Origin: Oscillospiraceae bacterium
Lineage (GTDB): Bacteria; Bacillota; Clostridia; Oscillospirales; Oscillospiraceae
NCBI GenBank assembly: GCA_030625685.1
Contig: DAOUQJ010000001.1
Location: 186,001-250,000 of the forward strand
DNA: 64,000 bases
Direction: 5' to 3'
Shown here: one piece after another, positions 45,834 to 56,238 of the stretch
How the letters are laid out: every line of letters starts with the position of its first letter
Position numbering within the stretch: the first letter of the stretch is position 1
The notes under the pieces: model-generated
The model's database searches: none
Seen by the model: the letters and a program-made list of their open reading frames with translations, nothing else
What the model was told of the DNA's origin: nothing
Program-made: the position numbers and the translations under genes

Positions 45834-46973
45834 ATGATTCAGAAATTTTTCCACGAACTATATAACTTATCCATTGACATGGGTTTTTATATGGTCATCG
45901 GTCTTTTATTCGTCGCATTCTTCACAACATTTATGAAGAAAGAAACCATCGCCAAGCATTTAGGAAAAAATGACCTCACGTCCAGTGCCAAAGCAAGTCT
46001 CTTTGGAGTGCCACTTCCTCTTTGCTCTTGTGGTGTGGTGCCAACTGCAGTCTACTTAAAAGAAAATGGTGCGTCCAATGCAACCGTGACTTCGTTTCTC
46101 ATTTCCACACCGCAAACAGGGGTAGACTCCATCATCGCCACTTATGGTCTTATGGGAATTACCTTCGCGTGGTTTCGCCCCATAGCCGCCTTTATATCAG
46201 GCATTTTTGGTGGACTGCTCGTGAGTATCTTCGGCAAGCATGAGAACATACAACCGCAAGCACCGAGCTCGTGCAGTTGCTGCACCCATGCCAGTGCCGA
46301 AACAGATGCCTGTCATACTAATGTCGAAACAGAGACTCACTCCTGTTGTTCCTCAGACGGGCATGACCACAGCTCCGCCTCCTCTTCTCAAACAGTCATA
46401 GGAAAGCTCAAAGCCTCATTTCAATATGCCTTTGGCGACTTTTTAGCTGACATCAGCTTACACTTTCTGATTGGTCTTGTGATTGCCGCCATCATTTCTG
46501 TTGTCTTGCCAGCCGACTTTCTTGTGAATATGGGTCTCACTTCAGGCATTGTTGCTATGCTCGTGATGATTGTCATCGGTGCACCTATGTATATTTGCTC
46601 CACTGCGTCTATTCCCATTGCGCTTATGCTCATGAGCAAAGGGCTAAGCCCTGGCACTGCCTTTGTCTTTCTCTTTATGGGCCCCTTTACGAATATTGCG
46701 AGCCTTTCCGTCTTATCTAAGGTGCTCGGCAAAAAAATCACAGGGATTTATTTGTTTGCGGCTTCTGTTGCTTCTATCGTTATGGGTTATCTGCTTGACT
46801 TTTTGGTCACTGCCTACAGCTTACCTGTCATCACCCAAACCACCAATCATATGATGGGACACGGTGGTGCAACATGGTTTAAAGTCGTGGTTGCTGGTGC
46901 ATTCATGCTGCTTGTTCTTTATCATTTGATTATGCATTTAAGAAATAAACGAATGGCAAATCTTTCTATGTAA
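45834..46973 (+). CDS. SO_0444-type Cu/Zn efflux permease
   Basis: The 379-residue permease has two membrane halves joined by a soluble cysteine/histidine-rich loop (about residues 143-182, with SCSCCTH, ACHT, HSCCSSDGHDH). The hallmarks are GVPLPLCSCGVVPTA (about 62-76) and GAPMYICSTASIPIALML in the second half. The SO_0444 family exports copper or zinc; the upstream alpha-5-site regulator favours zinc. AAGGAG lies before the ATG. Confidence 0.9.
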   Translation: MIQKFFHELYNLSIDMGFYMVIGLLFVAFFTTFMKKETIAKHLGKNDLTSSAKASLFGVPLPLCSCGVVPTAVYLKENGASNATVTSFLISTPQTGVDSIIATYGLMGITFAWFRPIAAFISGIFGGLLVSIFGKHENIQPQAPSSCSCCTHASAETDACHTNVETETHSCCSSDGHDHSSASSSQTVIGKLKASFQYAFGDFLADISLHFLIGLVIAAIISVVLPADFLVNMGLTSGIVAMLVMIVIGAPMYICSTASIPIALMLMSKGLSPGTAFVFLFMGPFTNIASLSVLSKVLGKKITGIYLFAASVASIVMGYLLDFLVTAYSLPVITQTTNHMMGHGGATWFKVVVAGAFMLLVLYHLIMHLRNKRMANLSM

Positions 46974-49613: not shown

Positions 49614-49642
49614 TTGACGCTTCCCTTGATTTTTGCTATAAT
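49614..49642 (+). promoter_or_regulatory. Sigma-A promoter of the polyamine operon
   Basis: TTGACG (49614-49619), a 17-base spacer and a perfect TATAAT (49637-49642) lie about 330 bases before speD. Transcription should start near 49650, well before the structured leader. Confidence 0.88.
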
Positions 49643-49649
49643 ACGTGCA

Positions 49650-49950
49650 GTTTCTTGTCACAACATAAGAACTACTTGACCGCTTCACAATGAAGCTAAG
49701 GCCATACGGACAGCCGGGTCAACTGCCGATTGGGTGTAGATCACCCTTATTGATTGCACATATGTGCAACTTTTATAAGTTGGTTACTTCATAACCGAAA
49801 TGTGTACCAGATGCACAGCTTGTGAAACGGTCAATAAGTGTAGAATGTAGTTCTAGCTTTATTAAGCATTTGTCTCAAGATATTATTGAAACATTTACAT
49901 CTCCATTGACTAATTCATGCATTGTGGTATACCACAATGCTTTTTTGTTT
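49650..49950 (+). ncRNA. Structured leader of the speD operon, candidate riboswitch
   Basis: The leader between the promoter and speD forms a closed multi-branch structure. Two 15-base arms (49676-49690 and 49820-49834) pair with one C-A mismatch. Inside are GGGTG-TAGAT-CACCC, the perfect dyad TTGCAC-ATAT-GTGCAA and GGTTA-CTTCA-TAACC. The 5' arm can instead fold locally (TTGACC with GGTCAA at 49717-49722, GCTTCA with TGAAGC). CACAATG in that arm is also complementary to CATTGTG in the terminator. These exclusive pairings suit a switch. I recognise no known class. The ligand would plausibly be a polyamine, S-adenosylmethionine or a related compound; this is inferred. Confidence 0.6.
49919..49946 (+). 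terminator. Intrinsic terminator just before speD
   Basis: Perfect 11-base arms (GCATTGTGGTA and TACCACAATGC, 49919-49940) are followed by TTTTTTGTTT. The speD ribosome binding site begins only eight bases past this T-run, so termination here would shut off the whole operon. Confidence 0.9.
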
Positions 49951-49968
49951 TCTAGGAGGTATCATAGT

Positions 49969-50700
49969 ATGCAAGAAAAAATGCAACTATATGGATTTAA
50001 CAATTTAACAAAGTCTTTGAGCTTTAATATATATGATGTGTGCTACGCCAAAACTCAGCGAGAACAAAAAGACTATATTGCCTACATCGATGAGCAATAT
50101 AACTCAGAACGGCTGACCAATATTCTTTATAAACTCACCGAAATGATTGGCGCCACTGTACTTAACGTCTCAAAACAAGACTATGAGCCACAAGGGGCAA
50201 GTGTCACATTTTTGATTGCCGAAGAGAGCATGCTCGACAGTCGCAGTGGCGATACTGTGGTTGCTCACTTGGATAAAAGCCATGTGACGGTGCATACTTA
50301 TCCTGAGTATCACCCTGAAAACTCGATTGCCACCTTCCGTGTTGACATCGACATTGCTACATGTGGTGAAATCACACCGCTTTCTACCTTAGACTTTCTG
50401 CTCGGCAGTTTTGATTCAGACATCATCACCCTTGATTATAAAGTGAGAGGCTTCACCCGTGACCTAAATGGCAAAAAACTCTTTTTAGATCATCACATCA
50501 CGTCCATTCAAGACTATATTCATCCAAGCACCTTAGAAAAATACGACTCCATCGACGTGAACGTGTATCAGTCAAATATCTTTCACACCAAAATGCTCAT
50601 CAAAGAAGTGGATTTGCAAAACTATCTCTTCAACACCGATGTGTATGAATTACCACCTCGTCAGCGCCTTTCTATCACCGAGAGCTACGCCGTGAAATGA
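49969..50700 (+). CDS. speD: S-adenosylmethionine decarboxylase proenzyme (E. coli-type), C-terminus frameshifted
   Basis: SpeD makes decarboxy-SAM, the aminopropyl donor for spermidine. The 243-residue protein closely follows the E. coli type: LYGFNNLTKSLSFNIYDVCY, IGATVLNVSKQDYEPQGASV, the self-processing serine in VVAHLDKSHVTVHTYPEYHP and VDIDIATCGEITPLSTLDF, then VYQSNIFHTKMLIKEVDL. The ATG at 49969 has AGGAGG eight bases upstream; the longer frame from 49822 reads leader RNA. The usual end, LxxEMxEIxxG, is found as REMIEIFSGTNVY just past the stop in another frame, so one base seems lost near 50680. Confidence 0.95.
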   Translation: MQEKMQLYGFNNLTKSLSFNIYDVCYAKTQREQKDYIAYIDEQYNSERLTNILYKLTEMIGATVLNVSKQDYEPQGASVTFLIAEESMLDSRSGDTVVAHLDKSHVTVHTYPEYHPENSIATFRVDIDIATCGEITPLSTLDFLLGSFDSDIITLDYKVRGFTRDLNGKKLFLDHHITSIQDYIHPSTLEKYDSIDVNVYQSNIFHTKMLIKEVDLQNYLFNTDVYELPPRQRLSITESYAVK

Positions 50701-50749: not shown

Positions 50750-52201
50750 TTGCATAATCAGTCCAAAGCTCCCATCTATGATGCACTCATACAGTTTGAT
50801 CAAATGCGCATCGTTCCCTTTGATGTGCCAGGACATAAACGCGGTAAGGGAAATCCTGCCCTTGTCGACTTTTTGGGTAGTGCCTGCCTATCTGTTGATG
50901 TCAATTCCATGAAACCGCTCGACAATCTCTGCCATCCTGTCTCTGTCATCAAAGAGGCAGAAGAAATTGCAGCCGAAGCCTTTCGCGCAAATCATGCTTT
51001 TTTCATGGTCGGAGGCACAACCTCTTCCGTACAAGCCATGATTTTGTCCGTTGTCGGTCGTGGCGATAAAATCATCTTGCCCCGCAACGTGCATCGCAGC
51101 GTCATCAATGCCCTCATTTTGTGTGGCGCAACCCCAGTTTATATCAATCCGCAAACCAACGAGACCCTTGGCATTTCTCTTGGGATGTCACTATCTGATG
51201 TACAAAAAGCAATCCATGAACACCAAGATGCCAAGGCGGTCTTTGTCAATAATCCCACCTATTACGGCATCTGCTCGAATCTCAAAGACATCACAGACCT
51301 TGCCCATCTAAACAACATGAAAGTGCTCGTGGATGAAGCGCATGGCACACACTTTTATTTTGGAGAAAACATGCCAACAGCCGCCATGGACGCAGGCGCG
51401 GACTTCGCCTCCGTCAGCATGCATAAGTCAGGCGGTTCTTTGACGCAAAGCTCCATTTTACTCTGCGGAAAAAACGTCAATGCCGACTATGTGCGCCAAG
51501 TCATCAACCTCACACAGACCACAAGCGCCTCTTACCTTCTCATGTCAAGTTTGGACATTTCTAGGCGAAATCTTGCCCTAAGTGGCAAAGAGATTTTTAG
51601 ACAAGTGACCGATTTGACGCGCTACGCCAGAGAAGAAATCAATTTAATCGGCGACTATTATGCCTACGCCAAAGAGCTCATAAACGGCGACAGCATTTTC
51701 GACTTTGACGAAACAAAGCTCTCAGTTAACACGCTTTCTCTTGGACTTGCCGGCATTGAAGTTTACGATCTGCTCCGAGATGAATACGACATTCAAATTG
51801 AGTTTGGCGATTTGGGCAACATCTTGGCCTACGTCTCCGTTGGAGACTCACATAAAAACATCGAGCGTTTGATTGGCGCCCTTTCAGAAGTAAAACGCAT
51901 CTATAAACGCGAGAAAAACACGCTCATGACGCATGAATACATCTCCCCTCTTGTCTCCATGCCACCACAGCAAGCCTTCTATTCCAAAAAAGAAAGTGTT
52001 CCACTTAAAAAAGCAGTTGGACACATCTGCTGTGAGTTTGTCATGGCCTACCCTCCTGGCATCCCCATTTTAGCTCCAGGCGAAACCGTAACAAAAGAAA
52101 TCATTGACTACATCGCCTATGCCAAAGAAAAAGACTGCTCCCTCACAGGACCAGAAGACATGGACGTCAATCACCTCAACATATGGAAAGGAGATTACTA
52201 A
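50750..52201 (+). CDS. speA: Arginine decarboxylase of the B. subtilis SpeA type
   Basis: This fold-type I PLP enzyme (483 residues) belongs to the Orn/Lys/Arg decarboxylase group, and with speB after it most likely makes agmatine from arginine. It has VPFDVPGHKRGKGNPALVDF near the start, FFMVGGTTSSVQAMILSVVG, the aspartate in MKVLVDEAHGTHFYFGE and the PLP lysine in SVSMHKSGGSLTQSS (about residue 225). The TTG at 50750 has AAGGAGG eight bases upstream. It overlaps speE by one base. A lysine or ornithine preference cannot be excluded from sequence. Confidence 0.92.
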   Translation: MHNQSKAPIYDALIQFDQMRIVPFDVPGHKRGKGNPALVDFLGSACLSVDVNSMKPLDNLCHPVSVIKEAEEIAAEAFRANHAFFMVGGTTSSVQAMILSVVGRGDKIILPRNVHRSVINALILCGATPVYINPQTNETLGISLGMSLSDVQKAIHEHQDAKAVFVNNPTYYGICSNLKDITDLAHLNNMKVLVDEAHGTHFYFGENMPTAAMDAGADFASVSMHKSGGSLTQSSILLCGKNVNADYVRQVINLTQTTSASYLLMSSLDISRRNLALSGKEIFRQVTDLTRYAREEINLIGDYYAYAKELINGDSIFDFDETKLSVNTLSLGLAGIEVYDLLRDEYDIQIEFGDLGNILAYVSVGDSHKNIERLIGALSEVKRIYKREKNTLMTHEYISPLVSMPPQQAFYSKKESVPLKKAVGHICCEFVMAYPPGIPILAPGETVTKEIIDYIAYAKEKDCSLTGPEDMDVNHLNIWKGDY

Positions 52202-53061
52202 TGGACATTTGGTACAGCGAACACCACACAGACCATGTGAAACTTTCCATCAAAGTGGATAGACAGCTTTACAGCAATCAAAGCGATTTTCAGCGCATTG
52301 ACGTCTTTGAAACCCCTGAGTTTGGACGTGTGCTCACACTGGATGGCTTCTTGATGCAAACGGAAAAAGACGAATTCATCTATCATGAAATGATTACCCA
52401 TATCCCCATGGCAGTGCACCCGAACCCTCGTCATGTTCTGGTCATCGGAGGTGGCGATGGCGGTGCAGTGCGCGAACTTTGCCGCTATGACAGCATCGAG
52501 CAAATTGATTTGGTGGAAATTGACCCTCTTGTCGTGGAAGTCTGCAAAACCTACTTCCCCACAACTGCCTGCTCATTTGATGACCCACGTTTGCGACTTT
52601 ACCATCAAGACGGTCTTCGTTTTGTGCGCAACTGTCACAATCAGTATGACCTTATCATCGTGGACTCCACAGACCCTTTCGGTCCTGGAGAGGGTCTCTT
52701 TACGAAAGAATTTTACGGCAACTGCTATAAAGCGCTCAAAGAAGATGGCATCATGGTCAACCAACATGAAAGCCCTTTCTATAAAGGCGATGCCATGGCA
52801 ATGAAGCGTGCCCACGCGCGCATAGTCAAGTCCTTTTCCATTAGTCGGGTCTATCAGGCACACATTCCAACCTATCCTTCAGGGCACTGGCTCTTTGGCT
52901 TTGCCTCCAAACGCTATCACCCCACAAAGGATTTGCTTTCCGAAGCATGGAACGACAAGAAGCTCGAAACCAAATACTACAACACCAATTTACACAAGGG
53001 AGCGTTTTATCTTCCAAACTACGTAGAAACAATGCTCAGAGAAGGAGAATTTGATGAATAA
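52201..53061 (+). CDS. speE: Spermidine synthase (aminopropyltransferase)
   Basis: SpeE transfers the aminopropyl group of decarboxy-SAM to putrescine. The 286-residue protein has the N-terminal beta domain with GRVLTLDGFLMQTEKDEFIY (about residues 42-61), EMITHIPMAVHPNPRHVLVI GGGDGG as SAM-site (written in two parts here), the acidic EIDPLVVEVCK and the catalytic IIVDSTDPFGPGEGLF. It overlaps speA by one base and speB by eight, with AAAGGAG inside the speA end, so the genes are translationally coupled. Confidence 0.96.
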   Translation: MDIWYSEHHTDHVKLSIKVDRQLYSNQSDFQRIDVFETPEFGRVLTLDGFLMQTEKDEFIYHEMITHIPMAVHPNPRHVLVIGGGDGGAVRELCRYDSIEQIDLVEIDPLVVEVCKTYFPTTACSFDDPRLRLYHQDGLRFVRNCHNQYDLIIVDSTDPFGPGEGLFTKEFYGNCYKALKEDGIMVNQHESPFYKGDAMAMKRAHARIVKSFSISRVYQAHIPTYPSGHWLFGFASKRYHPTKDLLSEAWNDKKLETKYYNTNLHKGAFYLPNYVETMLREGEFDE

Positions 53062-53905
53062 AAACGTACAAACCTTTCTCGCCTGTGATAAGGACTTTGA
53101 CAAGAGCAATATTGTGCTCTTTGGTGCACCTTTTGATGGGACAACCTCATTTCGCCCAGGCACACGCTTTGGTCCCAATGCCATCCGCCAAGAGTCCTTT
53201 GGCATTGAAACCTATTCTCCCTATCAAGGTAGAGACTTAGAAGACATAAGTGTCTGTGACATTGGAGATTTAGACCTGCCCTTCGGCAACACAGAGCGCG
53301 CACTCTCTATGATTGAAGAAACCACAAGCGACATTGTAAACGCAAAGAAACTGCCTGTCATGGTTGGCGGAGAACATCTCGTGACCCTGCCTGCTGTCAG
53401 CGCAGTGCTCAAACAATATCCCGACCTTTGCATCATTCATCTGGATGCCCACACCGACTTGCGTGACGACTATTTGGGCGAAACACTCTCTCACTCCTCC
53501 GTCATTCGTCGCGTTTGGGATAAAATCGGAGACGGACGCATCTTTCAATTTGGCATTCGCAGTGGTGAGCGCCATGAATTTGAATTTGCCAAAGCACACA
53601 CCTTTTTGCAAGCATTTGACTTGCAAGGGTTTGAAACACTGCCCGAACTACTGGGCAATACCCCTGTCTATGTGACACTGGATTTAGATGTCTTAGACCC
53701 CAGCATTTTCTGTGGCACAGGAACCCCAGAAGCCGGTGGCGTCAGCTTCAAAGAATTGCTCAGCGCACTGCTTCACCTGTCGAAACTCAATGTAGTCGCC
53801 TGTGACATCAATGAACTTGCCCCCGTCTATGACCAAAGTGGCGTGTCTACTGCGGTCGCTTGTAAACTCGTACGTGAAATATTGCTGACATTAAAAGGAG
53901 GATGA
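53054..53905 (+). CDS. speB: Agmatinase
   Basis: SpeB hydrolyses agmatine to putrescine and urea. The 283-residue protein is an ureohydrolase with a binuclear manganese site: MVGGEHLVTLPAVSAVLKQ, IIHLDAHTDLRDDYLGE (about residues 125-141), and VYVTLDLDVLDPSIFCGTGT PEAGG (in two parts). The start at 53054 has AAGGAG six bases upstream. Its presence next to a SpeA-type decarboxylase supports the agmatine route. It overlaps speE. Confidence 0.95.
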   Translation: MNKNVQTFLACDKDFDKSNIVLFGAPFDGTTSFRPGTRFGPNAIRQESFGIETYSPYQGRDLEDISVCDIGDLDLPFGNTERALSMIEETTSDIVNAKKLPVMVGGEHLVTLPAVSAVLKQYPDLCIIHLDAHTDLRDDYLGETLSHSSVIRRVWDKIGDGRIFQFGIRSGERHEFEFAKAHTFLQAFDLQGFETLPELLGNTPVYVTLDLDVLDPSIFCGTGTPEAGGVSFKELLSALLHLSKLNVVACDINELAPVYDQSGVSTAVACKLVREILLTLKGG

Positions 53906-53909
53906 CAAC

Positions 53910-55109
53910 ATGGGAAAAGCATTAATCATCGGTTGTGGTGGTGTGGCAAACGTCACCATTCACAAATGCTGTCAAAACAGCGACGTCTTCGAAGAAATTA
54001 TGATTGCGAGCCGTACCAAGTCCAAATGCGATGCGGTCAAAGCCAAACTTGACGGTGGCAAAACCAAAATCCACACAGCGCAAGTGGATGCCGACAAGGT
54101 AGAAGAGCTCATTCCGCTCATCGAATCCTTTGGGCCTGACGTTGTCATCAACTTGGCTCTGCCATATCAAGATTTAACCATCATGGATGCTTGTCTGGCA
54201 ACCAAAACCCACTATATCGACACAGCCAACTATGAGCCACTCGATACAGCAAAATTTGAATACAAATGGCAATGGGACTATCACGACCGCTTCAAAGAAG
54301 CAGGCATCTGCGCTCTGCTCGGCAGTGGCTTTGACCCTGGCGTCACTGGCGTCTTCTCTGCCTATGCGCAAAAACACTACTTTGACGAAATTCACTATCT
54401 TGACATCCTAGACTGCAACGCAGGCGACCACGGTTACCCCTTTGCAACAAACTTCAACCCAGAAATCAACATCCGTGAAGTCATCGCCAACGGCAGCTAT
54501 TGGGAAAATGGCGAATGGATTGAAACCGAACCGATGGAAATCAAAAAAGTCTACGATTTTCCACAAGTCGGGGAAAAAGATATGTACCTTCTGCATCATG
54601 AAGAACTTGAAAGCCTTGGCAAAAACCTCAATGGCATCAAACGCATTCGCTTTTTCATGACCTTTGGTCAAAGCTATTTGACTCACCTCAAATGTCTCGA
54701 AAACGTCGGCATGACTTCCATCGAACCAATCGAATTCAACGGGCAACAAATCGTGCCACTACAATTTTTGAAAGCTGTTCTGCCTGACCCTGCTAGCCTC
54801 GGCCCTCGCACCAAAGGCAAAACCAACATCGGCTGTATCTTCCAAGGCATCAAAGACGGCTTAGAAAAAACCTACTACGTCTACAATGTCTGCGACCATG
54901 AAGCCTGCTTTGCCGAAGTGGAAAGCCAAGCGGTATCTTACACCACAGGCGTTCCTGCTATGATTGGGGCAATGCTCATCATGAATGGCACTTGGAAAAA
55001 AGAAGGCGTATACAACATCGAAGAATTTGACCCAGATCCATTCATGGAAGCGCTCAATAAATGGGGTCTACCTTGGGTAGAAGACTTTAACCCCACCTTG
55101 GTGGACTGA
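53910..55109 (+). CDS. Carboxynorspermidine/carboxyspermidine dehydrogenase
   Basis: This 399-residue member of the saccharopine dehydrogenase family joins aspartate semialdehyde to putrescine (or diaminopropane) by reductive amination. It has a Rossmann start ALIIGCGGVANVTIHKCCQN, CLATKTHYIDTANYEPLDTA, the family signature LLGSGFDPGVTGVFSAYAQK (about residues 136-155) and YPFATNFNPEINIREVIANG. Pairing with nspC sets the function. Four bases separate it from speB and one base from nspC, with AAAGGAGG upstream of the ATG. Confidence 0.93.
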   Translation: MGKALIIGCGGVANVTIHKCCQNSDVFEEIMIASRTKSKCDAVKAKLDGGKTKIHTAQVDADKVEELIPLIESFGPDVVINLALPYQDLTIMDACLATKTHYIDTANYEPLDTAKFEYKWQWDYHDRFKEAGICALLGSGFDPGVTGVFSAYAQKHYFDEIHYLDILDCNAGDHGYPFATNFNPEINIREVIANGSYWENGEWIETEPMEIKKVYDFPQVGEKDMYLLHHEELESLGKNLNGIKRIRFFMTFGQSYLTHLKCLENVGMTSIEPIEFNGQQIVPLQFLKAVLPDPASLGPRTKGKTNIGCIFQGIKDGLEKTYYVYNVCDHEACFAEVESQAVSYTTGVPAMIGAMLIMNGTWKKEGVYNIEEFDPDPFMEALNKWGLPWVEDFNPTLVD

Positions 55110-55110
55110 G

Positions 55111-56238
55111 ATGAACACAAACGAAACACTCAAAACCCCCTATTACCTCGTGGATGAAGGCTTGCTTCTGCGCAATTTAGAAATACTCAAAGATGTTTCC
55201 GAACGTGCAGGCTGTAAAATCCTACTGGCACAAAAGGCATTTTCCATGTTTCGCTGTTATCCGCTTATCGCTAAATACCTCAGCGGCACGACAGCCAGTG
55301 GACTATATGAAGCAAAACTGGGCCATGAAGAAATGGGTGGTGAAACCCACATTTTTTCCACAGCTTACCTCGCCGATGAGATAGACGAAATTCTCTCCAT
55401 CTGCGATCACATCGTCTTCAACTCCTTCACCCAGTGGGAAACCTATCGTGATAAAGCGCGCAAGTCAGGCAAATCCTGTGGTATTCGCATCAATCCAGAG
55501 TGTTCCACACAGGATGGTGGCATTTATGACCCCTGTAGCCCTCTTTCTCGTCTCGGTGTCACAAAGCAAAATTTCAGACCCGATTTGCTCGACGGCATTG
55601 ACGGCTTACATTTTCACACACTTTGTGAACAAGACAGCCCCGATTTGGTGAAAACTCTGCAGGCAGTCGAAGCGCAGTTTGCCGACTATCTGCCCAAAAT
55701 GAAATGGGTGAACTTTGGCGGCGGACACCACATCACAAGAGAAAACTACGACGTAGAAACACTCATTGAAACCATTGTCGCCTTCAAAGAGCGCTACAAC
55801 GTGGACGTGTATGTAGAGCCTGGCGAAGCCGTCGCCCTAAACGCTGGATTTCTTGTGAGCACCGTGCTCGACATCATCGACAACGGCATGCAACTTGGCA
55901 TCTTAGACACCTCCGCCGCCTGTCATATGCCTGACGTCTTAGAAATGCCGTACAGACCGCACATCGTGGATTCAGACAAGCCCAATGTCAAAGCCCACAC
56001 CTACCGCTTTGGTGGGCCAACTTGCCTCGCGGGCGACATCATCGGCGATTATTCCTTTGATGAGAAACTGCAAATCGGTGACAAACTCACCTTCTGCGAC
56101 ATGGCCATTTACTCGATGGTGAAAAACAATACCTTCAACGGCATGCGCCTACCTTCCATCGCCTTAAAGAAACTAGACGGCACCATCGAAGTCGTCAAAA
56201 CTTTTGGCTATGAAAATTTTAAAATGAGATTGTCATAA
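55111..56238 (+). CDS. nspC: Carboxynorspermidine/carboxyspermidine decarboxylase
   Basis: NspC is a fold-type III (alanine racemase-like) PLP decarboxylase that completes the carboxyspermidine route. The 375-residue protein has the PLP lysine in KILLAQKAFSMFRCYP (about residue 42), VNFGGGHHITRENYDVETL, YVEPGEAVALNAGF and the C-terminal active-site cysteine region in RFGGPTCLAGDIIGDYSF. It is the last gene of the operon. Whether it makes spermidine, norspermidine or both depends on the amine pool and cannot be read from sequence. Confidence 0.95.
   Translation: MNTNETLKTPYYLVDEGLLLRNLEILKDVSERAGCKILLAQKAFSMFRCYPLIAKYLSGTTASGLYEAKLGHEEMGGETHIFSTAYLADEIDEILSICDHIVFNSFTQWETYRDKARKSGKSCGIRINPECSTQDGGIYDPCSPLSRLGVTKQNFRPDLLDGIDGLHFHTLCEQDSPDLVKTLQAVEAQFADYLPKMKWVNFGGGHHITRENYDVETLIETIVAFKERYNVDVYVEPGEAVALNAGFLVSTVLDIIDNGMQLGILDTSAACHMPDVLEMPYRPHIVDSDKPNVKAHTYRFGGPTCLAGDIIGDYSFDEKLQIGDKLTFCDMAIYSMVKNNTFNGMRLPSIALKKLDGTIEVVKTFGYENFKMRLS

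Follow-up and report, generated by a model that had tools for sequence, protein, structure and literature searches.

What kind of RNA precedes the polyamine operon of this Oscillospiraceae bacterium, and which signal does it read? The window (the whole 64,000-nt stretch of DNA that was analysed) encodes, in operon order, speD, an Orn/Lys/Arg decarboxylase, speE, speB, a carboxynorspermidine/carboxyspermidine dehydrogenase-like protein (CASDH) and nspC (Table 1). Ahead of them lie a promoter, a leader of about 300 nt and a perfect terminator, followed by the speD ribosome binding site. The polyamine-operon leader is real, beyond chance. Its fold has an energy of -89.2 kcal/mol, compared with -67.5 +/- 5.1 kcal/mol for shuffled sequences (z -4.27; 0 of 100 shuffles).

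The original prediction was of a switch-like, terminator-ending leader ahead of a polyamine operon, and in this it was correct. Several of its local observations are also borne out: the consensus promoter, the inner hairpins (at least three) and the terminator directly before the ribosome binding site (9 bp and a T tract, then AGGAGG) lie where it had placed them, as do two 15-base arms, 49676-49690 (TTGACCGCTTCACAA) and 49820-49834 (TTGTGAAACGGTCAA), that pair with a single mismatch. The promoter has the extended TG and agrees with the sigma-70 consensus at 11 of 12 positions; the match alone is little proof, since a 2-kb scan returned 2 promoter-like sites, compared with a mean of 4.0 in shuffles.

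The decarboxylase labelled ldcC is probably the arginine decarboxylase speA, given that an agmatinase is encoded in the same operon. Pneumococcal SP_0916, formerly annotated as a lysine decarboxylase, is described as an arginine decarboxylase (PMC7531197; PMC7990898). Upstream of the leader region, an SO_0444-family Cu/Zn efflux transporter (NF033936, above cut-off) is encoded at 45834-46973 of the + strand.

Table 1. Features of the leader and operon, in positions of the window.
Feature	Position	Strand	Remark
Sigma-70 promoter TTGACG-17-TATAAT with extended TG	49614..49642	+	11/12 matches
P0 5' strand AGAACTAC	49668..49675	+	pairs with 49847-49854
Match of full-length model R1	49677..49851	+	153.4 bits
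5' domain = RF02440 SpF59: P1, P2, conserved AAGGCCATACGGACAGCCGGGTC, TGCCGA	49677..49729	+	
P1 5' strand	49677..49681	+	pairs with 49717-49721
P2 hairpin GCTTCA-CAA-TGAAGC	49682..49696	+	double changes in every pair
Inner hairpin GGC...GCC, conserved CATACGGACA loop	49700..49715	+	G-C to A-U in 2 sequences
P3 hairpin GGGTGTAGATCACCC	49732..49746	+	
P4 5' strand TTATTGA	49747..49753	+	pairs with TCAATAA 49831-49837
P5 hairpin	49754..49769	+	
P6 5' strand	49771..49779	+	pairs with 49819-49827
P7 hairpin GGTTACTTCATAACC	49782..49796	+	
P8 hairpin	49801..49817	+	weakest helix, 64% and 76% of cells paired
Candidate antiterminator CCAGATGC	49807..49814	+	pairs with GCATT(G)TGG 49919-49927
P6 3' strand and P4 3' strand	49819..49837	+	
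Junction GTGTAGAAT (family: GAGTAGTAAAAGTA) and P0 3' strand GTAGTTCT	49838..49854	+	
Intrinsic terminator GCATTGTGG-TATA-CCACAATGC and T tract	49919..49946	+	perfect 9-bp stem 49919-49940
Ribosome binding site AGGAGG	49954..49959	+	
speD, S-adenosylmethionine decarboxylase	49969..50700 (ATG 49969)	+	TIGR03331
Orn/Lys/Arg decarboxylase, labelled ldcC	50750..52201	+	best models far under cut-offs
speE, spermidine synthase	52183..53061	+	
speB, agmatinase	53051..53905	+	
CASDH-like	53910..55109	+	NF043000, below its cut-off
nspC, carboxynorspermidine decarboxylase	55111..56238	+	TIGR01047

Rfam assignment, distribution and gene context

The 5' domain of the leader is Rfam RF02440 SpF59_sRNA (ldcC RNA), matched over model positions 1-54 of 54 with 72.2 bits against a gathering cut-off of 37.2; it is the sole gathering match in the entire window (Rfam release 15). 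The leader had been called unclassified, which is wrong. A match to a known Rfam family was named in the original prediction as an outcome that would speak against it, and formally this is what the search returned; Rfam lists the family only as an sRNA (type 'Gene; sRNA', "Streptococcus sRNA SpF59"). The leader had also been set apart from the SAM, T-box, lysine and guanidine families, and indeed no such Rfam match falls on it. A low-threshold search of the leader gave other families only far below their cut-offs, and membership of a SAM family was rejected, with no SAM-family match to the window leader at gathering or at E up to 5. At 17 further loci each leader matches RF02440 and no other family (matches beyond the leader in two of them are to 5S rRNA, tRNAs and Bacillaceae-1 RNA).

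The RNA conserved in relatives is about 180-230 nt long, as against the 54 of Rfam, which models only P1 and P2 and calls the RNA an sRNA. A second conserved part lies 3' of the Rfam domain and comprises P3, P4, P5, P6, P7 and P8, then GAGTAGTAAAAGTA; together with P0 and a covarying antiterminator it distinguishes the leader from the Rfam model, and some members of the full-length RNA have no RF02440 match. The inner GGC/GCC hairpin of the 5' domain is missing in the Rfam structure line. The family is thus a known one whose full extent, position and mechanism we did not find described among the open-access matches listed: in PubMed Central, none of these was a paper calling RF02440 or F59 a riboswitch or describing the full-length RNA. 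The main texts of two structured-RNA surveys or reviews (PMC11109978, PMC7266159) contain none of the terms sought, and in the main text of PMC8632094 polyamines come up solely in connection with the potE and odc1 motifs and in the references.

The pneumococcal member (F59/srn235/SN20/Spd_sr49) is placed between SP0915 and SP0916, on the SP0916 strand (PMC3395615). A 2025 listing, where it is still a putative sRNA, gives its span as 869478-869804, approximately the length of a terminated leader, and reports matches in 385 strains with synteny (PMC12323649). This sRNA, given as 327 nt in one listing, would then represent a terminated leader of the same class, a link drawn from the Rfam family name and the printed coordinates.

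RF02440 was found in 44 of 197 genomes of the same order and in 18 of 398 genomes of a phylum sample. The full-length model R1 (179 positions, 52 pairs), built without use of gene context, matched 51 and 23 of these, respectively, with one match per genome and with every RF02440 genome included; among the 23, L209 is regarded as a chance match, as it lies inside an open reading frame of a purE/purK-like pair (by eye). A degenerate 21-base core pattern occurs in at least 118 stretches of named genomes, and among the matches listed are Oscillospiraceae, Lachnospiraceae, Paenibacillus, Bacillus, Neobacillus, Kurthia, Acidaminococcus, Phascolarctobacterium and Erysipelotrichaceae. The pattern also turns up in one MAG labelled Spirochaetes (L104) and in one labelled Synergistaceae (L142), possibly through binning error. 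A Streptomyces match (L134) was discarded as chance.

At 147 of 151 readable loci the first recognised gene after the leader serves polyamine synthesis or import: speD in 54, an ldcC/speA-type gene in 40, potA in 31 and CASDH in 22. The readable loci are the 163 found, minus 11 that end too soon and the chance match L134; genes were identified from their similarity to proteins encoded in the window or to one potA, and the census includes near-duplicates (L001 is the window, and some loci are from the same genome). All eight CASDH-first loci that could be read over more than 4.5 kb encode CASDH-nspC without speD or speE. Read gene by gene, L067 encodes potA, then two permeases and a PotD-like binding protein, the last of which is also present at L066 and L082. 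At the four other loci the first gene is of the M28 peptidase type (L086 by Pfam, L021 and L122 by eye) or codes for an amidohydrolase (L061, Pfam). From gene content, the regulated genes thus appear tied to one metabolite, as is expected for a riboswitch.

We examined eleven weak or extra R1 places (an extra genome, G178, was left out). Only L216 among them has an RF02440 match, and nine, L216 included, precede speD, an ldcC-type gene, CASDH or potA; matches with E of 4.8e-5 and 7.6e-5 precede speD. At L214:463-640, an R1 match and a terminator-like stretch precede an open reading frame without a Pfam match.

Some minor features of individual loci were also seen. The M28 peptidase-type genes that follow the leader at L021, L086 and L122 encode lipoproteins. 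At four potA-linked loci (L004, L027, L055, L067) an extra hairpin is apparently inserted between TGCCGA and P3 (by eye), and at L123, about 199-620 nt past the core, a small open reading frame between the leader and potA has a PII-type regulatory look (by eye).

Covariation of the fold and pairing with the terminator

Of the 163 loci, 154 had enough flank (L134 excluded) and 130 remained after removal of near-duplicates. Strict motifs were present in 95 of the 130; the 55 of these that had standard length, together with the window, form alignment A1 (56 sequences), which favours regular members because only standard-length loci entered. In A1, 92.9% of cells are paired, compared with 88.2% after shuffling, and covariation is 0.178, compared with 0.103 (0 of 500 shuffles). 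Run on the window and 99 other loci, R1 matched all 100, and 99 of them over positions 1-179; the remaining match (L048) ends at position 168, where the contig ends. In the resulting alignment A2 (100 matches, 99 distinct), 95.0% of cells are paired, 36 of the 52 pairs show double changes, and covariation is 0.255, compared with 0.107 shuffled, a value that 0 of 500 shuffles reached. Pairing falls to 31-43% in controls in which partners were slid by 1-3 columns. A2 was fitted to R1 and hence leans toward the model, whereas A1 is free of such fitting. There are 74 columns of at least 95% identity, 24 of them unpaired. The mRNA leader contains a conserved, structured, aptamer-like domain, as a riboswitch should.

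The original prediction had noted TTGACC/GGTCAA and GCTTCA/TGAAGC as an alternative local fold of the 5' arm; this fold is present, is the conserved structure and covaries in relatives. The family strands of P4 are TTATTGA/TCAATAA and those of P6 TTTTATAAGTT/AACTTGTGAAA. P0 encloses the whole, pairing bases that precede P1 with bases that follow P4: among the 107 of 130 loci that were usable, own duplexes have -17.66 kcal/mol, compared with -13.94 kcal/mol for permuted partners (0 of 2000 permutations). A candidate pseudoknot of CGG in the core loop with the CCG of TGCCGA was set aside, because both sides are nearly invariant and covariation could not be judged.

A simple script detected a terminator in 107 of the 130 leaders and returned none for 23; antiterminator tests used 103 of the 107. 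The terminator 5' strand is complementary to the 3' strands of P8 and P6, which contain the best complementary 14-mer of the whole leader at 69 of the 103 loci, compared with a mean of 10 and a maximum of 14 in 20 shuffles (at the other 34 loci the best complement is elsewhere). Pairing of these strands with their own terminator has -11.45 kcal/mol, compared with -9.53 kcal/mol for permuted terminators (z -9.4; 0 of 1000 permutations); for eleven other leader segments z ranges from -1.7 to +1.1. The terminator and the leader co-evolve via the exact strands that close P6 and P8. Thus, the arrangement has the anatomy of an antiterminator, with P6/P8 as the decision point.

An expression platform with mutually exclusive folds, another mark of riboswitches, is predicted computationally at the level of the family and appears weak in the window, where the antiterminator CCAGATGC/GCATT(G)TGG has only -8.2 kcal/mol. 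A different antiterminator had been suggested from a 7-base match between the 5' arm and the terminator. The match exists (CACAATG at 49686 and, inside the terminator, at 49933), but it is not the antiterminator of the family (P1P2_5 z -0.6, P2_3 z -1.7): the 103 loci give no clear own-specific signal for P1/P2, and imposing it on the window leader has a price of about 16 kcal/mol. Among the members of the family the window is divergent, since the conserved 3' segment is missing: it has a weak antiterminator and lacks the 3' signature GCTATATAGACTCTGA.

Predicted mechanism, effector and alternatives

The leader is very probably a cis-regulatory terminator switch of polyamine genes. We predict a cis-acting, transcription-terminating leader of riboswitch type that controls both polyamine biosynthesis and uptake. 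Comparison of the loci shows two alternative partners for the 3' strands of P8 and P6, one inside the conserved P0-P8 fold and the other in the terminator's 5' strand. When polyamine is high, the ligand (most likely spermidine) would bind the folded RNA and hold P6/P8 shut, the terminator would form and the operon would be OFF. When it is low, the P8 and P6 3' strands would invade the terminator stem and the operon would be ON. Spermidine is the product of both the speD-speE and the CASDH-nspC routes and a substrate of potABCD. Biosynthesis and import genes share the leader, and feedback repression by the product would therefore be the natural reading. We hold with moderate confidence that the leader senses a polyamine directly, most likely spermidine, as an OFF switch, with ligand, binding and direction all being predictions.

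The published pneumococcal data on the direction of the switch are mixed. Deletion of potABCD is reported to lower polyamines and to raise speA (SP_0916) 16.9-fold and speE 14.4-fold by qRT-PCR, and the RNA-Seq of the same report lists neither gene as differentially expressed (PMC8540371). The transport inhibitor AMXT 1501 is described as raising three biosynthesis genes 1.4-1.7-fold (PMC10887117), and deletion of speE as raising arginine decarboxylase (PMC7990898). Contrary reports are that DFMO lowers polyamine biosynthesis genes and that deletion of SP_0916 lowered polyamine-synthesis proteins (both PMC10887117), and that loss of putrescine synthesis reduces transport and spermidine genes (PMC7990898). 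Polar effects are possible in these contrary data.

The same cis-acting terminator switch could respond to an effector that is not a polyamine, such as a protein, SAM, decarboxy-SAM, MTA, agmatine, arginine or another signal. Many leaders are under protein control, the SAM-using speD is the commonest first gene (54/151), and the expression data on direction are mixed, all of which favours such an effector; we nevertheless consider it rather unlikely, as what the gene contexts share is spermidine or its transport. The original prediction had offered a polyamine, SAM or decarboxy-SAM as the ligand. A polyamine would be the most likely of these, and SAM or decarboxy-SAM is unlikely to be the common ligand because the leader is used by CASDH-nspC operons without speD or speE (8/8) and by potABCD operons, neither of which involves SAM. 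The size of the RNA and its 24 unpaired, highly conserved columns would fit an aptamer better than a simple protein site.

It is very improbable that the RNA is a small RNA acting in trans, as it is filed by Rfam and in the pneumococcal literature, including the 2025 listing of srn235/F59 (PMC12323649). At 147 of 151 loci the RNA is followed by a polyamine gene; the leader's pairing and covariation with the terminator are what a switch acting in cis needs, and in sequencing data a terminated leader would resemble an sRNA. Leader peptides that respond to polyamines are known from other systems, and a reading frame that starts with the ATG at 49690 runs through the core; a translated peptide on which polyamines stall ribosomes is hardly credible here, given that open reading frames enter the core in differing frames, that distances from the core to the P6 motif are spread over all three frames (31, 27 and 24 of 82 motif-bearing loci) and that base pairs covary. 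We rejected this attenuator, as no short open reading frame is conserved and no frame is kept. Scarcely more can be said for the long helix of the two 15-base arms as the P1 of the aptamer, which the original prediction took as the core. It is part of the minimum-energy fold of the window, where forced folds have -84.4 kcal/mol for the long pairing, -79.0 kcal/mol for the family fold and -74.9 kcal/mol for the antiterminator (energies that leave out tertiary contacts and ligand), but it is not conserved: 59.9% of cells pair in A1, and its covariation equals that of shuffles (0.052 compared with 0.053; 296 of 500). Since 49 of the 56 sequences could form its two basal C-G pairs, the long helix could still act in the window species, where it may compete locally as an alternative state.

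Direct sensing of a polyamine by a terminator switch invites comparison with known systems. T-box and other antiterminator leaders exchange terminator and antiterminator before the first gene of an operon, as predicted here; no T-box match was found in Rfam for the window and 17 relatives. Polyamine riboswitches have long been sought. A spermidine riboswitch, a SAM-I variant, is described as a polyamine-gene leader (of ldcC, speB and speE) that is turned OFF by spermidine through transcription termination (Salvail et al. 2023, PMC10853860). That RNA is given a four-stem SAM-I structure, whereas the leader described here has a different helix plan and no SAM-family match. The odc1 motif also precedes a polyamine gene (ornithine decarboxylase), but by its description it is a control element with a pseudoknot that incorporates a uORF (PMC8632094), and our leader has no conserved reading frame.

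The leader spans Clostridia, Bacillus, Paenibacillus, Acidaminococcus and other Bacillota, stands before both synthesis and import genes and has a readable terminator switch. If a polyamine is its ligand, the leader would constitute a second class of polyamine riboswitch, distinct in structure, would explain a pneumococcal "sRNA" that lacks an assigned mechanism, and would provide a single, testable regulator of polyamine homeostasis for many gut bacteria.

Modules and a possible pseudoknot

The RNA is modular: some natural members lack the Rfam domain, and one lacks P5-P8. The conserved sequence of the Rfam domain is absent and the 3' parts are kept at L207:565-662, L206:392-560 and L211 (- strand, 1983-1843), which precede a polyamine gene, speD or ldcC-type. 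L207 is minimal, with a recognisable part of about 100 nt. At L208, L210, L213 and L215 the 5' domain is divergent or decayed and has no RF02440 match; L212 is cut by the contig end. Conversely, L216 (- strand, 1811-1699) keeps the 5' domain and P4 and is missing P5-P8. Reduced P5-P8 regions were also noticed at L143 and L149 (by eye).

What the reduced leaders have in common is P0 and TCAATAAGAGTAGTAAAAGTA...GCTATATAGACTCTGA. An exact pattern for the latter matched 13 of the 398 genomes of the phylum sample, and a reversed control pattern gave none among the matches listed. As a tentative extension, held with some doubt, this could be a new and widespread class of polyamine riboswitch made of separable modules that can be lost individually (the SpF59 5' domain and P4-P8), held together by P0 and TCAATAAGAGTAGTAAAAGTA...GCTATATAGACTCTGA. 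Such an RNA may read polyamine at two sites, with the strongly conserved 3' segment, not the 54 nt of Rfam, as its common core.

The two elements of the remainder may themselves be pseudoknotted. A pairing of GAGT with ACTC (P9), both inside TCAATAAGAGTAGTAAAAGTA...GCTATATAGACTCTGA, could form a pseudoknot that crosses P0, judging from the loci compared: 118 of the 129 GAGT loci have ACTC within the 60 bases examined. P9 is absent in the window and mismatched at L065, and at L010, L015, L142 and L208, in the 3' segment that follows TCAATAA or its equivalent, compensatory changes give GCGT/ACGC or GAGC/GCTC.
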